DNA of 34,962 bases from a virus, in IMG/VR virus record IMGVR_UViG_3300032241_000348, positions 1 to 34,962 of that record; one strand, 5' to 3'. Below the pieces are notes generated by a model. The model saw nothing but the letters and a program-made list of their open reading frames with translations, was not told the DNA's origin and did no database searches. Position numbers and translations under genes: made by a program. Of the stretch, positions 1-34,962 are shown piece by piece (positions within the stretch are counted from its first letter, which is position 1; each line of letters starts with the position of its first letter).

Positions 1-107
1 CAGTCTTGCGAGGCACAGGCACTATCTTCGCCACCTGTATTGCGCTATTTCAGCCTCTTACCCTTCTGGTAACGCTACAACCTTAGACCGCCACGATGTC
101 GTTAGAG
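1..107. repeat. 107-bp direct terminal repeat, left copy
   Basis: Bases 1-107 are identical to bases 34856-34962. This shows that the contig closes on itself. It is either the residual overlap of a circular assembly or a true short direct terminal repeat of a linear phage genome; the sequence alone cannot separate the two. The odd length and exact identity would fit a k-mer overlap. The repeat lies inside a gene-free, hairpin-rich region. Confidence 0.95.
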
Positions 108-136
108 CCGCCAATCTAAGGGGATTTGATTCTACA
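1..136. other. Gene-free hairpin-rich region, left part (continues from 34677-34962)
   Basis: No convincing ORF on either strand. Visible inverted repeats: GAGGC (10-14) with GCCTC (53-57) and, nested beside it, ACAGG (15-19) with CCTGT (34-38); TTACC (58-62) with GGTAA (68-72), loop of 5; CCTTAGA (81-87) with TCTAAGG (115-121). The segment GTTAGAGCCGCCAAT (101-115) recurs almost exactly at 2626-2639 in the other large gene-free region. It lies just downstream of the Cro-like gene (minus strand). Candidate structured RNA or replication origin; function not known. Confidence 0.5.
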
Positions 137-513: not shown

Positions 514-723
514 ATGGATGAATTAGCACAAGTAATGTTTGAAATGGAAGAACGCTTAGAAGTAGCGTTGAATAACATGGAATACGGCACAGACCTATCA
601 GCCGATGATGTAGATGTTATTCGTGCAGCTTGTGGCAAACCCAACAATAAACGCAATGTATTGCTACAAAGCGTATTTAATGATTTTGGCAACATTTTTG
701 GAGGTTCAAATGCGTCAATCTGA
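514..723 (+). CDS. Small acidic early protein, unknown function
   Basis: A 69-residue acidic protein, first gene of the early operon, with a strong AAGGGGA ribosome-binding site (501-507) seven bases before its ATG. The N-terminal half is likely helical (EMEERLEVALNNMEYG). Its end overlaps the ERF gene by 14 bases, so the two are probably co-translated. No family recognised; the position suggests a partner or regulator of recombination or replication. Confidence 0.7.
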   Translation: MDELAQVMFEMEERLEVALNNMEYGTDLSADDVDVIRAACGKPNNKRNVLLQSVFNDFGNIFGGSNASI

Positions 724-1792: not shown

Positions 1793-2542
1793 ATGTCTCA
1801 ACATTGGTATTGCGCCCAAACTGGGCAACCACGCTATACAACCATTGGAAAAAACGGAAAAGAGCGCTCAACTACACTCGCAGATGCAAAGAAAGCGCCA
1901 GGAACTCTTGTACCAAGCGTTAGTACTATTACAGGACAATTATCAAAAGACGGTCTTACCACATACTTCCAGACCGAAGCTATCAGGGCTGCTGCTGAAT
2001 TTCCACGCTTAGATGGGGAAAGCGAAAAAGATTACATTTCTCGTTGTTTAGAGCTTGCAAAAAGAAAATCTAAGGAAGCTCAAGAGCGTGGTACTTTAAT
2101 CCATGATTTTATGGAAAGCTATTACACCCAAGTATTTATTCCTGATTGGCCTAGTTATGTCAAGATTGTTGATGAAGCCATTACAGCGCATTTTGGCCCA
2201 CAACTCTGGCTGGCGGAGCAGAGTTTGGTCAATCAGCAAGAAGGCTATGGCGGAAAATGCGATTTATATGCCAAGCCCAATCATGCGTTCAAAGGAATCG
2301 TAATTGACTTTAAAACGACAGAGAAAAGCCCTAGCGAATTAACGCCATATATAGAAAATGTTTTACAGCTTGCAGCGTACCGAGAGGTTCTTGCGCCCTC
2401 AGCACGATGCGCTAATGTCTATATCAATGGTACTACAAACGAAGTAGCCATTTATGAACACGATGAACAAGATTTGCGTGATGCTTACCAAATGTTTGTT
2501 AATCTGGTTCAAATCTATAAGCTCAGAAATAAGCTAAACTAG
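1793..2542 (+). CDS. PD-(D/E)XK exonuclease (RecB/Cas4-like)
   Basis: A 249-residue nuclease with the ordered motifs of the RecB/lambda-exonuclease-like group: GTLIH with H104, an acidic residue at WLAEQSL (E142), GYGGKCDLYA with D157, IDFKT with D172 and K174, and QLAAY (Q192, Y196). These coordinate metal and cut DNA; with the ERF annealase it would resect ends for single-strand annealing. The ATG follows AAGGGGAAA at 1779-1787. It is the last gene before the long structured gap at 2543-2855. The superfamily is firm; exo- versus endonuclease activity is inferred from neighbours. Confidence 0.88.
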   Translation: MSQHWYCAQTGQPRYTTIGKNGKERSTTLADAKKAPGTLVPSVSTITGQLSKDGLTTYFQTEAIRAAAEFPRLDGESEKDYISRCLELAKRKSKEAQERGTLIHDFMESYYTQVFIPDWPSYVKIVDEAITAHFGPQLWLAEQSLVNQQEGYGGKCDLYAKPNHAFKGIVIDFKTTEKSPSELTPYIENVLQLAAYREVLAPSARCANVYINGTTNEVAIYEHDEQDLRDAYQMFVNLVQIYKLRNKLN

Positions 2543-2547
2543 ACCTC

Positions 2548-2615
2548 GAGGCGGCAGACTGGATTTCCCCTTTCCAGACCACACACATCACGGAGTGTTC
2601 TGCTGCCTCACCTTT
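2548..2615 (+). terminator. SL1: three-way-junction hairpin followed by a T-run
   Basis: The outer stem 2548-2558/2599-2609 encloses CTGGA (2559-2563) paired with TCCAG (2573-2577) and ACAC (2583-2586) paired with GTGT (2595-2598). The inner hairpins abut the outer stem, giving a compact three-way junction. TTTTT at 2613-2617 follows the outer stem after three bases, so partial termination after the exonuclease gene is possible. Confidence 0.4.
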
Positions 2616-2775
2616 TTCTAAGGGCGTTAAGCCGCCAATGTAGGATGCAGTAATTGGGTAATTTTGCGGCTTTCTGACCCATTGTTAGCAACTGCCAAAT
2701 ACAGCCTTGTTGTTTATTCGCAACTAAGGGTTTATCAGGATGGCTTTTGCTTGCTAACTGCAATAAATTACTTTC

Positions 2776-2842
2776 AACAGGTCAAACATACTTCAGCTCA
2801 ATAAGCCGCAGGTGTACGACTAAGCAGTTTGACTTGTTTTTT
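2776..2842 (+). terminator. SL4: 12-bp stem plus T-run just before a gene (possible attenuator)
   Basis: AACAGGTCAAAC (2776-2787) pairs with GTTTGACTTGTT (2827-2838) over 12 positions with one G-U, and the 3' arm runs directly into TTTTTT (2837-2842). That is the form of an intrinsic terminator with a large loop. It lies only a few bases before the AAGGGGA ribosome-binding site of the next gene, so it could attenuate the second half of the early operon. Not tested. Confidence 0.45.
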
Positions 2843-2855
2843 ATAAGGGGAAATT

Positions 2856-3032
2856 ATGAAAGACGGTTACTACATCAATACAGTCATTTTTGGCAACACA
2901 GAAATCGACTTATACGGTTACAACAACGAAATTACATACGCTTATATTGGCGACCACGATATTAGCGAAATGGTCAAAAGCCTTGATTTATGGAAAAAAA
3001 TCGAGGATGAACTCTACGAACAGGCTGGCTAA
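2856..3032 (+). CDS. Unknown small protein, 58 aa
   Basis: Begins with an ATG preceded by ATAAGGGGAAATT and ends directly against the next start (TAA ATG). The sequence is MKDGYYINTVIFGNTEIDLY followed by a short beta-rich part and a helical acidic end (LWKKIEDELYEQAG). No family recognised. It is the first gene after the structured region, so its expression is the one most likely affected by that element. Confidence 0.7.
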   Translation: MKDGYYINTVIFGNTEIDLYGYNNEITYAYIGDHDISEMVKSLDLWKKIEDELYEQAG

Positions 3033-28292: not shown

Positions 28293-28445
28293 CTACAAAT
28301 TTTTAATTTGTTGTTTTAATGTTTCAATTTCAATTTGTTGTTCAAGCAAAAGTTTTGCCGCTTTAATAATATCACCTCTAAAAGGTCTTTCCCAATCAAT
28401 AACTAATTTTTCTAGACTGTTTGCCAATTCCAATGCTTCGTTCAT
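28293..28445 (-). CDS. Small helical protein, 50 aa
   Basis: A short ORF with AAGGGGAAAAT before ATG 28445. It encodes MNEALELANSLEKLVIDWER followed by a coiled coil (KLLLEQQIEIETLKQQIKNL). Small proteins with an amphipathic start and a leucine-zipper-like tail are common among phage accessory genes. Coding is supported by the strong SD site; function unknown. Confidence 0.62.
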   Translation of the reverse strand: MNEALELANSLEKLVIDWERPFRGDIIKAAKLLLEQQIEIETLKQQIKNL

Positions 28446-32406: not shown

Positions 32407-32732
32407 CTGGTCATTCTTTCAATATTACGGTTAGTGGCTTGTTCTGAACGCCATGCTTCAAATTCCATTTGAGCTTGAGCTATTTCTAATTTCAACAAGG
32501 TTTTATTTGCTGTGGCCTCTCCTATCTGATTGCAATATTCAGCATATTCAGCAGATGCGTAGGCTTCTCGTTCTTGCGCCCCCAATGATTGCTCATTTGA
32601 TTTTTTCATCATAATGGCAATAATGGCTCGTTTCTTTGCTTCTAAACCAGCAGCCAATCCTTCGGCTTCGGCATATTTGCGCTTGACATTTTCAATCATG
32701 TCATAAGCATTGTGTGGGTCAAATTCTTTCAT
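32403..32732 (-). CDS. Coiled-coil protein, 109 aa, unknown function
   Basis: A nearly all-helical protein (MIENVKRKYAEAEGLAAGLE, ANKTLLKLEIAQAQMEFEAW) with an alanine/glutamate-rich middle. It overlaps the methyltransferase gene by 14 bases. Helical proteins of this form occur with phage recombination genes, but no named family is recognised and no motif suggests an enzyme. Confidence 0.65.
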   Translation of the reverse strand: MKEFDPHNAYDMIENVKRKYAEAEGLAAGLEAKKRAIIAIMMKKSNEQSLGAQEREAYASAEYAEYCNQIGEATANKTLLKLEIAQAQMEFEAWRSEQATNRNIERMTR

Positions 32733-33558
32733 TTAACAATCTCCATGCTGTTGCTGCACAAAATGGGACTTGTCCATTTCCAATGGCTTTAAGTCTGTCC
32801 ACCCTATCGGCCATCCCATTAGCCACTCTACCCACATTGGGTTCAACTGACCAGAAGTCGGGTGAACTACCATACTCAAGTTTAATTGTTTCCCAATCTC
32901 TGCTCTGCGTTGTATTGATGGATTGCTCATGTTTCCTCTGTCCCGATAATCCGATGCTTGAGGTGTTGGAAAATTGTCTATTCTTTTTTTTAATGCTTTG
33001 CGACTGTTGCTGCCTCCGTCTATTCCTGTTGTACATGGAGTATGAAAGAAATCGAGATTGTTCGGTATTTTTTCCGACAATCCATATTCTGTCCCTTCTA
33101 TGATTTGCGCCAACATCGGCTGCTGAAAGCACTCCCCATTCCGCATCGAACCCCATCGAGGCCAGGTCTGCAAGGACTCGTTCAAGTCCTCTAAAAGTGA
33201 GCATTGGACTGTTCTCAATGAATGTGTATTTGGGTCGTACCTCGCTAATAATCCTTGCCATCTCTTTCCACATTCCTGACCGCTCTCCGTCAAGCCCATC
33301 TCCTTTTCCTGCTGCGCTGATGTCTTGACATGGAAATCCTCCAGATACAACATCAACAATTCCTCGCCACGGCTTTCCGTCAAAGGTTTGAACATCATCC
33401 CAAATCGGGAAAGGCGGGAGAACTCCGTCATTTTGTCTGGCGCACAATACGCTTGCTGGATAGGCTTCCCACTCGACTGCACAAACTGTTCTCCATCCAA
33501 GCAAATGTCCCCCAAGTATTCCTCCACCAGCACCTGCGAAAAGAGCCAACTCATTCAT
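32719..33558 (-). CDS. dcm: DNA cytosine-C5 methyltransferase
   Basis: A 279-residue C5-methyltransferase. Motif I LALFAGAGGG (4-13), motif IV GGFPCQDIS with catalytic C77, motif VI ENSP (115-118), motif VIII RRDRIWIVG (154-162), and the C-terminal RLKAIGNGQVPFCAA (255-269, motif X). The target-recognition stretch (about 163-232) is short and low-complexity (Q, S, N, R). No partner restriction enzyme was seen, so it likely protects phage DNA from host restriction. The gene is also open in another frame over nearly its full length (see 32733-33554). Confidence 0.93.
   Translation of the reverse strand: MNELALFAGAGGGILGGHLLGWRTVCAVEWEAYPASVLCARQNDGVLPPFPIWDDVQTFDGKPWRGIVDVVSGGFPCQDISAAGKGDGLDGERSGMWKEMARIISEVRPKYTFIENSPMLTFRGLERVLADLASMGFDAEWGVLSAADVGANHRRDRIWIVGKNTEQSRFLSYSMYNRNRRRQQQSQSIKKKNRQFSNTSSIGLSGQRKHEQSINTTQSRDWETIKLEYGSSPDFWSVEPNVGRVANGMADRVDRLKAIGNGQVPFCAATAWRLLNERI
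32733..33554 (-). CDS. Alternative-frame ORF nested in the methyltransferase gene
   Basis: A 273-codon ORF on the same strand, in a different frame from dcm, beginning with an ATG 4 bases after the dcm ATG and ending 14 bases before the dcm stop. It is tryptophan-rich with protein-like motifs: SLLEDLNESLQTWPRWGSMR (119-138), FPTPQASDYRDRG (195-207), QLNPMWVEWLMGWPIGWTDL (236-255). From memory, similar sequences appear in phage genomes beside or within dcm genes. It may be a real overlapping gene or only the shadow of a conserved dcm sequence. It can be reached by the same SD site as dcm. Confidence 0.4.
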   Translation of the reverse strand: MSWLFSQVLVEEYLGDICLDGEQFVQSSGKPIQQAYCAPDKMTEFSRLSRFGMMFKPLTESRGEELLMLYLEDFHVKTSAQQEKEMGLTESGQECGKRWQGLLARYDPNTHSLRTVQCSLLEDLNESLQTWPRWGSMRNGECFQQPMLAQIIEGTEYGLSEKIPNNLDFFHTPCTTGIDGGSNSRKALKKRIDNFPTPQASDYRDRGNMSNPSIQRRAEIGKQLNLSMVVHPTSGQLNPMWVEWLMGWPIGWTDLKPLEMDKSHFVQQQHGDC

Positions 33559-33566
33559 AGTTCCCC

Positions 33567-33713
33567 TTATTTAAGCGCAAGCCAAAGACCAATTTGACTA
33601 AACGCATAACCTAACCAAATAATTGCGTTAGGAAATGCCCCTTTGCGTAATTGCAGAACACCAACCATTAAATACCCAAGTCCTGTTGCTGCGATGATTG
33701 CTTTTTCCAACAT
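33567..33713 (-). CDS. Small membrane protein, 48 aa
   Basis: ATG 33713 is preceded by AAAGGGGAATACGG. The product, MLEKAIIAATGLGYLMVGVL then QLRKGAFPNAIIWLGYAFSQ, has two hydrophobic helices (about 4-20 and 28-46) joined by a short basic turn. A two-helix hairpin with no lysis genes nearby; it could be an early membrane or superinfection protein. Its stop lies just before the dcm ribosome-binding site. Confidence 0.65.
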   Translation of the reverse strand: MLEKAIIAATGLGYLMVGVLQLRKGAFPNAIIWLGYAFSQIGLWLALK

Positions 33714-33904
33714 CCGTATTCCCCTTTATTACCCAGTTTAAATTGTTCGTAGAAATCGTCAATGATTTCTTGCGACCAGTTGTATTTCTGCAAATAAACC
33801 CTAAACTTTGCTAACCCCCATTCATGACGCCATTTACACAACTGCCTGACGGCTGATTTGTGTCGAAATTCTTTGTCGTAATTGGGCGAAAGACTCTCCT
33901 GCAT
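33668..33904 (-). CDS. Conserved replication-region protein, 78 aa
   Basis: The sequence contains EFRHKSAVRQLCKWRHEWGL, then KFRVYLQKYNWSQEIIDDFY and QFKLGNKGEYG. R-H-[KE]-x-x-V-R-x-L...L-G-N-[KR]-G-[EK] is a pattern I recognise from small phage proteins of unknown function next to replication genes. It overlaps the replication-like gene upstream by 71 bases and the membrane-protein gene downstream by 46 bases; AGGA lies upstream of the only ATG. Confidence 0.65.
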   Translation of the reverse strand: MQESLSPNYDKEFRHKSAVRQLCKWRHEWGLAKFRVYLQKYNWSQEIIDDFYEQFKLGNKGEYGCWKKQSSQQQDLGI

Positions 33905-34211: not shown

Positions 34212-34368
34212 TTTCTTCTCCTGTCGGTTTAATTCTCCATTCTGTAAAACTCCAAAAACTAGGAGGATTTCCCGAAATCCAATCTATCCATTCACCATCA
34301 ATATCTTGTGCTTGAACATCAATGCCTTCAGCCCATGCTTTCATCACTTCAAAATGTTTGTTAATCAT
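34204..34368 (-). CDS. Small tryptophan-rich protein, 54 aa
   Basis: Encodes MINKHFEVMKAWAEGIDVQA, then EWIDWISGNPPSFWSFTEWR and IKPTG. The pattern (V-x-K-A-W-A-x-G...P-S-F-W...E-[WY]-R-I-K-P) is familiar from short phage proteins of unknown function. ATG overlaps the previous stop (ATGA), and its end overlaps the replication-like gene by 8 bases. Function unknown. Confidence 0.7.
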   Translation of the reverse strand: MINKHFEVMKAWAEGIDVQAQDIDGEWIDWISGNPPSFWSFTEWRIKPTGEEIV

Positions 34369-34676
34369 TGCATCACCCTTGGGCTTGCAGGTGTTGATGG
34401 GCTTGAAGGTACTGTATAGGCGGTATTGCCAATTACAGTTGTTGTAACGCCATTAGGTGTGGTAATAATTACTTGGTTATTATACAAAGTTGCGGTTTGT
34501 GTAATATGCCCTTGTGGGTTTACAAATTGAACCGTATTGCCTTTAATTTGCACAGTTCCCATGTTGTAACCTTGTGGGTTTGTAACTGGAAATGTCTGAG
34601 CTTTTGCTGGCACACCGTATGCAATCATAGCGCCAATTAATGCGCCCAAAATACAACTACCAATAATGTCTTTCAT
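34365..34676 (-). CDS. Secreted/periplasmic 20-residue-repeat protein
   Basis: A 103-residue protein with a signal peptide (hydrophobic ILGALIGAMIAYGV, likely cut after AKA at residue 26). The mature part has three 20-residue units that begin NPQG (33), NPQG (53) and TPNG (73), probable beta-hairpin repeats, and a proline/serine tail. It is first in the leftward operon, behind a strong AAGGGGAAG site. A periplasmic early phage protein may block superinfection or alter the envelope; this is inference. Confidence 0.72.
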   Translation of the reverse strand: MKDIIGSCILGALIGAMIAYGVPAKAQTFPVTNPQGYNMGTVQIKGNTVQFVNPQGHITQTATLYNNQVIITTPNGVTTTVIGNTAYTVPSSPSTPASPRVMQ

Positions 34677-34819: not shown

Positions 34820-34855
34820 CTTCAAAGTTCTCCCATTGCGGAATCGCTCACCCGA

Positions 34856-34962
34856 CAGTCTTGCGAGGCACAGGCACTATCTTCGCCACCTGTATTGCGC
34901 TATTTCAGCCTCTTACCCTTCTGGTAACGCTACAACCTTAGACCGCCACGATGTCGTTAGAG
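34856..34962. repeat. 107-bp direct terminal repeat, right copy
   Basis: Identical to bases 1-107. It closes the genome map: joining the two copies brings the leftward operon start (34676) to within about 315 bases of the end of the Cro-like gene (137). Confidence 0.95.

Follow-up and report, generated by a model that had tools for sequence, protein, structure and literature searches.

Two candidate structured RNAs in the early operon of an uncultured phage, one with a loop complementary to the Shine-Dalgarno sites of early genes

The stretch analysed here (the window) is IMG/VR virus record IMGVR_UViG_3300032241_000348 over its full length of 34,962 nucleotides. Its early operon includes genes for Erf (614-1141), an SSB-like protein (1141-1401) and a PD-(D/E)XK-type exonuclease, and a small ORF (2856-3032). 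An earlier note on this DNA had singled out 313 bases without a gene at 2543-2855. The gap was confirmed, with the exonuclease ORF on one side, ORF 2856-3032 on the other and no credible gene within. The four inverted repeats that the note had described (SL1 to SL4, with arms of 11, 7, 8 and 12 bp) are all present in the sequence, and SL1 forms a true three-way junction (Table 1). Another structured RNA of these same phages, the Betaproteobacteria-1 RNA (RF02932), was identified across the contig ends (window 1-121 and 34850-34962, minus strand). The ends have an exact 107-bp direct repeat in common, so the record closes on itself and this RNA is single copy. Of the 13 relatives scanned, 10 carry this RNA upstream of the exonuclease, and it differs in locus, strand and structure from the two RNAs of the gap, to which it is unrelated.

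Table 1. Coordinates of the gap modules, neighbouring features and predicted targets in the window.
Feature	Position	Strand	Remarks
Early ORF, predicted target	514..723	+	SD AAGGGGAA
Exonuclease SD, AAAGGGGAAA	1779..1788	+	10-nt complement of module A loop
PD-(D/E)XK-type exonuclease gene	1793..2542	+	PHROG 298 exonuclease, E 7e-18
Module A, three-way-junction RNA	2548..2612	+	outer stem 2548-2558/2599-2609 (SL1, 11-bp arm), ACC tail 2610-2612
Module A hairpin 1, SD-complementary loop UUUCCCCUU (2564-2572)	2559..2577	+	loop-SD covariation
Module A hairpin 2, loop AUCACGGA	2583..2598	+	recurring UCACG-type loop
Module C, 87-nt pseudoknotted RNA	2622..2708	+	P1 2622-2625/2704-2707, P2 2639-2642/2700-2703, P3 2647-2651/2691-2695, PB 2655-2659/2677-2681
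Module C pseudoknot helix (SL2, 7-bp arm)	2629..2672	+	AAGCCGC 2629-2635 with GCGGCUU 2666-2672
SL3 (8-bp arm)	2684..2758	+	2684-2691/2751-2758; exact partner in 2/125 distinct loci
Hairpin E (SL4, 12-bp arm), leader hairpin of gene 2856	2776..2838	+	2776-2787/2827-2838, one non-Watson-Crick position; z -3.5
SD of gene 2856-3032, AAGGGGAAAT	2845..2854	+	10-nt complement of module A loop
ORF, predicted target, opposite strand	28293..28445	-	SD AAGGGGAAA
DNA methyltransferase gene, predicted target	32719..33558	-	SD AAGGGGAA; PHROG 363, E 2e-68
Small ORF, predicted target, opposite strand	33571..33714	-	SD AAAGGGGAA
ORF, predicted target, opposite strand	34365..34676	-	SD AAGGGGAA

Folded as a whole, the gap was modestly more stable than its shuffles (z -2.0, with 5 of 100 shuffles equally good), and for this reason the finding cannot be judged from one sequence. 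SL1 (z -4.7) and SL4 folded alone each did better than all 200 shuffles, and the SL2 region scored z +1.1 because its true fold is a pseudoknot that the folding program used cannot draw. Homologous gaps were therefore compared from well over 100 uncultured phage contigs. The exonuclease protein as query returned 80 related viral loci, and at least 120 viral contigs contained a pattern built on the central portion of the gap. None of 84,980 bacterial and archaeal genomes contained this pattern, a search of 50,697 phage records with the gap sequence gave no hit, and module C was likewise without a match in 72,556 plasmids; the cultured phages, plasmids and bacterial genomes searched contained no convincing copy of the gap or of module C. 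Two weak hits were treated as chance: a 78.6% match of Cbunavirus phages over 54 nt of L205, where the C model reached at most 10.4 bits on an inner fragment, and L155, which fits the module C pattern but scores 20 bits. Rfam 15 (4227 models, including twister, tRNA and the C4 RNA, RF01695) gave no match to the gap at the gathering threshold or to an E-value of 5, and modules A, B and C of 13 related loci were likewise unmatched.

In the relatives, the exonuclease stop codon is followed, in this order, by module A, a variable number of optional B hairpins or other inserts (none to several), module C and the leader of the next gene. Some loci that carry A lack C (for example L017, L023, L063, L305, L306 and L314), and many that carry C lack A, which rules out one four-stem RNA. 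On this comparative evidence we regard the gap as an RNA array, 3'-untranslated and intergenic in position, that encodes two previously uncatalogued structured RNAs, modules A and C.

Judged by covariation, module A is a conserved three-way-junction RNA directly 3' of the exonuclease stop codon, starting within about 10 nt of it in all loci that carry the module. In the 52 distinct sequences compared, pairing is complete (100%) at pairs 1-7 of the outer stem, where G-C, A-U, U-A and C-G exchanges occur; hairpin 1 has many different stems, all of them self-complementary; and 50 of the 52 end in ACC. The covariation score was 0.787 compared to 0.219 in shuffles (0/500; 17 distinct outer stems), and folds from other clades had z values of -4.1 to -5.3. 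No promoter was scored upstream of module A, and no plus-strand intrinsic terminator was scored in 2200-2950, which includes SL1 and SL4. The 3' end of the exonuclease gene has no lowered synonymous variation, hence no conserved promoter signal, so that a discrete A RNA would have to come from processing. A tRNA-like RNA was considered on account of the 7-bp stem, two arms and ACC tail of module A in one clade, but there was no ARAGORN or Rfam tRNA call. No tRNA was called in the window, and the modules remain uncalled although an adjacent tRNA-Asn(GUU) gene, located between modules A (or B) and C in three relatives (L014:5817-5892, L015:5817-5892 and L065:2716-2791), is called.

The loop of hairpin 2 reads UCACGGA in one clade and UCCGUG, near its reverse complement, in the GGGGGCG clade, which would fit an inversion of this loop. 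Loops of the UUCACG type appear repeatedly, in modules A and B as well as ahead of C where it stands alone. The optional B modules, found between the exonuclease stop and C in L016, L030, L037, L043, L082, L091, L138, L143 and others, have a 4-bp covarying stem, highly variable inserts and an ACC or AAC tail, and their internal motif GAAA ... (A)GUA is similar to the bulged-G (sarcin-ricin/loop E) motif. They also occur directly 5' of the exonuclease in L303-L308. At the far end of the array, hairpin E is conserved as a leader hairpin of the next gene, and its end pairs covary in relatives. A mini-ORF of the MARxDFKLKR type is located in the next-gene leader hairpin of some relatives (window 2776-2838; L029, L034, L048 and L072) and possibly encodes a leader peptide.

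Module C is a separate conserved RNA with a pseudoknot, as indicated by its alignment, and is found with or without A and after other genes. Gap-free alignment was obtained for 118 of 120 distinct copies, and 104 distinct 87-nt sequences were used. Paired cells made up 99.8% (91.9% in shuffles), two-sided changes occurred at 11 of 25 pairs (5.9 in shuffles) and in 207 cells (69 in shuffles), and the covariation score was 0.233 compared to 0.087. Sliding the partners by 1-3 columns destroyed the pairing signal. The 17-nt loop of hairpin PB forms pairs with the stretch that separates P1 from P2, and this pseudoknot helix is 100% paired in the 104 sequences, with two-sided changes at 2 pairs; SprT-type loci have a further compensatory state, AAGCCGA/UCGGCUU. 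P3 and the flanking unpaired bases are invariant in 104/104, behind exonucleases with identity down to about 40%. Rfam models of ribozymes (twister and others) and riboswitches did not match module C, and a known ribozyme or riboswitch was dropped as an explanation. It is a good candidate for a new non-coding RNA (ncRNA) family without a catalogued relative, and we infer that it is a distinct trans-acting ncRNA or a protein-binding RNA carried in the array.

Most copies of module C (166 of 181) follow an exonuclease homologue, at a distance of 63-243 nt and in one case 670. Others lie a few nucleotides after the stop of an SprT-like gene, in 11 of 80 such loci. The occurrence there is sporadic and the location constant, 5 nt behind the stop codon of the SprT-like gene (among L114, L137, L191, L192 and L224-L302), which suggests insertion or loss as a unit. 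In L174, module C follows an inserted ORF. In L194, L205 and L215 it stands alone near terminase genes, each time behind a -10-like box; a TATACT box is about 8 nt 5' of P1 in L205, and in L215 one such box precedes the array unit with C and a second precedes a B module. Several TATACT boxes and terminators surround C in these three loci, apparently forming a small-RNA gene cluster. In the clade without the SD-matching loop described below (L085, L120, L145, L168 and similar loci), a sigma70-like promoter 3' of C overlaps a GTTAAG-N4-CTTAA palindrome, which is probably an operator for the next genes.

These comparisons change the picture drawn in the earlier note in part. Its suggestion of a candidate new structured RNA is strongly supported, being borne out by conservation, covariation and the lack of an Rfam match, and compensatory changes in homologous gaps, a check it had proposed along with the Rfam search, were found for SL1 and the SL2 helix. 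Shuffling, another of its checks, favored SL1 and SL4, but not the whole gap or the SL2 region. Its one structured RNA is indeed structured but is better described as an array of separable modules in which SL2 is half of a pseudoknot. The four stem-loops said to tile the gap hold for SL1, the SL2 helix and the ends of SL4; SL3 is not conserved and is most likely due to chance.

A match that the earlier note had not reported involves the C-rich loop of SL1 (2563-2572), a perfect 10-nt complement of the Shine-Dalgarno (SD) sites of both the exonuclease and the next gene. The seven best-pairing start regions in the gene list of the window are exactly those of the AAGGGGA genes, three on the plus strand (ORF 514, the exonuclease and ORF 2856) and four on the minus strand, all of them outside the structural genes. 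The four predicted targets on the opposite strand would be reachable in trans only, if they are real targets.

Across the relatives, the module A loop is complementary to the SDs of the exonuclease and several early genes, and comparison of three clades shows that loop and SDs changed together. The loop/SD pairs are UUUCCCCUU/AAGGGGAAA in the main clade, UUCCCCCGA/UCGGGGGAA in L303-L311 and CCCCCUA/UAGGGGG in L312-L316; in the clade shifts, loop GAUUCCCCCGAUC occurs with SD UUCGGGGGAAU, and loop AUUACCCCCUAGU with SD UAUAGGGGGAA. The ribosome also constrains the G-runs of SDs, which leaves covariation to run length and to the letters on either side. A GGGG exonuclease SD was present in 79/79 distinct loci with a UCCCCUU loop compared to 2/44 without such a loop. 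In predicted duplex energy, each of the three loop types did best with SDs from its own clade (-14.0, -18.5 and -13.9 kcal/mol, compared to -9.9 to -14.1 kcal/mol with those of other clades). In permutations, 0/5000 reached the observed mean duplex energy; these loop/SD counts are non-independent, as the three states may reflect a minimum of two shifts, and permutation counts overstate independence. Among SD-positioned motifs in ten longer records from the three clades, 34 fit the loop of their own record and 1 that of another clade, and two records without the loop had no SD-positioned matching motifs. L125 has GGGG SDs and no loop.

The number of genes with a matching SD varies by clade. It is found on 6-8 early genes per genome in the main clade, including an opposite-strand operon, on 2-4 genes in the CCCCCUA clade, and, in the UUCCCCCGA clade, on the exonuclease plus no more than one further gene in each record, so that a wide regulon is indicated for the main clade only. 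In every clade, the tightest match to the loop is the exonuclease SD.

Taken together, we consider it fairly probable that module A serves as a co-transcribed feedback RNA, repressing early phage mRNAs by an anti-SD action, with module C a distinct ncRNA in the same array. In this model, the exonuclease mRNA would include A, which host nucleases would probably release. The C-rich loop of A would then pair with early-mRNA SDs, in trans and on the parent mRNA, competing with ribosomes for these sites and blocking 30S binding. Translation of the recombination and DNA-modification genes would fall once the operon had been sufficiently transcribed, constituting negative feedback by RNA. The repressive sign is taken from known SD-pairing RNAs (RoxS, NmsR and P1 C4). 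The regulatory reading in the earlier note finds support in one specific form, that of an anti-SD loop coevolving with its SDs.

Pairing could also be confined to cis, with A acting as a part of the 3'UTR that folds onto the SD of either the exonuclease or the cistron after it and never exists as free RNA. The constant start of A no more than about 10 nt from the exonuclease stop codon, the tight match to the exonuclease SD in every clade, the 10-nt match of the window loop to both neighboring SDs and the lack of an evident promoter for A would all fit, but such an arrangement does not account for the repetition of the SD on 6-8 early genes per main-clade genome, opposite-strand operon included, or on 2-4 genes in the CCCCCUA clade, and we regard it as rather unlikely. 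Coevolution reveals pairing and not its sign, so the loop might instead shield SDs from an SD-cleaving nuclease or join mRNA ends, thereby stabilizing or activating early mRNAs. Phages do cut SDs, as T4 RegB cleaves the GGAG SDs of early mRNAs (PMC3014915); however, loop and ribosome compete for identical SD bases, and the characterized RNAs that pair SDs in this way (RoxS, NmsR and the P1 C4 RNA) repress, making a positive role improbable.

We give a similarly small probability to the modules being passive mRNA 3'-end structures involved in slowed exonucleolytic decay, processing or termination, with a loop-SD match that stems from shared C/G-rich composition. In favor of this, every module is located 3' of a gene, A looks like a terminator stem with ACC and, in some cases, U-runs behind it, and some relatives have a tRNA gene within the array. 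Composition leaves the clade-specific flanking letters and run length unexplained, however, as passive ends do the near-total conservation of unpaired bases in C and its lone position behind a -10-like box in L205 and L215, and no terminator was scored at SL1 or SL4. Least probable by far is a replication origin or other DNA element, which the earlier note had suggested from stem-loops in a non-coding gap of the early region. That suggestion found no support: the compensatory changes are those of base pairing itself, G-U states and the pseudoknot included, the modules occur independently, at varying positions relative to genes and after different genes, C stands alone behind a -10-like box in three contigs, and there is no GC-skew extreme at 2-3 kb and no tandem iterons were seen.

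The favored reading, a repressive anti-SD RNA, has partial counterparts in several known systems. OppZ and CarZ of Vibrio cholerae are 3'UTR-derived autoregulatory sRNAs that regulate their own parent mRNA, OppZ depending on RNase E and Hfq and acting via Rho-dependent termination (PMC9438474). Module A is similarly placed at the 3' end of the transcript it is predicted to regulate and is complementary to the start region of that transcript, seen here as clade-wise covariation, but unlike OppZ its loop matches a whole set of phage SDs. The C4 antisense RNA of phages P1 and P7 carries complementary segments in loops and targets a phage ribosome-binding site (PMC12197685), as the module A loop may. 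Module A differs in having no Rfam C4 match, in following a recombination exonuclease gene where C4 precedes ant, and in having many predicted targets with one SD motif in common. C-rich unpaired segments complementary to SDs are also known from Bacillus subtilis RoxS and Staphylococcus aureus RsaE (PMC8216469) and from the Neisseria NmsR siblings, which are tandem anti-SD sRNAs (PMC5362039). These RNAs are chromosomal, with different folds and no sequence relation to module A, whose predicted targets are the phage's own genes and whose loop and SDs coevolve by clade. A described phage anti-SD RNA regulating early genes was not found in the literature searched, the coverage of which was incomplete.

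The T4 RegA protein is phage-encoded and blocks the translation initiation regions of about 30 early mRNAs (PMC3014915). Module A is likewise proposed as a phage-encoded repressor of many early starts, but RegA is a protein that recognizes A/U-rich start regions and module A is an RNA whose loop would read the SD itself. More tentatively, and with somewhat less than even confidence, we suggest that the array holds an RNA counterpart of RegA, in which the loop of one small RNA reads a clade-specific SD "address" common to the regulon and RNA and addresses coevolve, alongside module C, a compact pseudoknotted ncRNA of a further new class, whose unpaired bases hardly vary and which acts on a target of its own.

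Anti-SD RNAs and 3'UTR-derived feedback RNAs were previously known singly and mostly from bacterial chromosomes. What is new here is module A as a variant of these RNAs and module C as an unclassified structured RNA. In a widespread group of uncultured freshwater phages, the target code would be readable from sequence, since loop and SD set shift together by clade. The loop/SD pairs would be a natural example of orthogonal SD/anti-SD pairs, and swapping them would make RNA-based early shut-off in phages directly testable.
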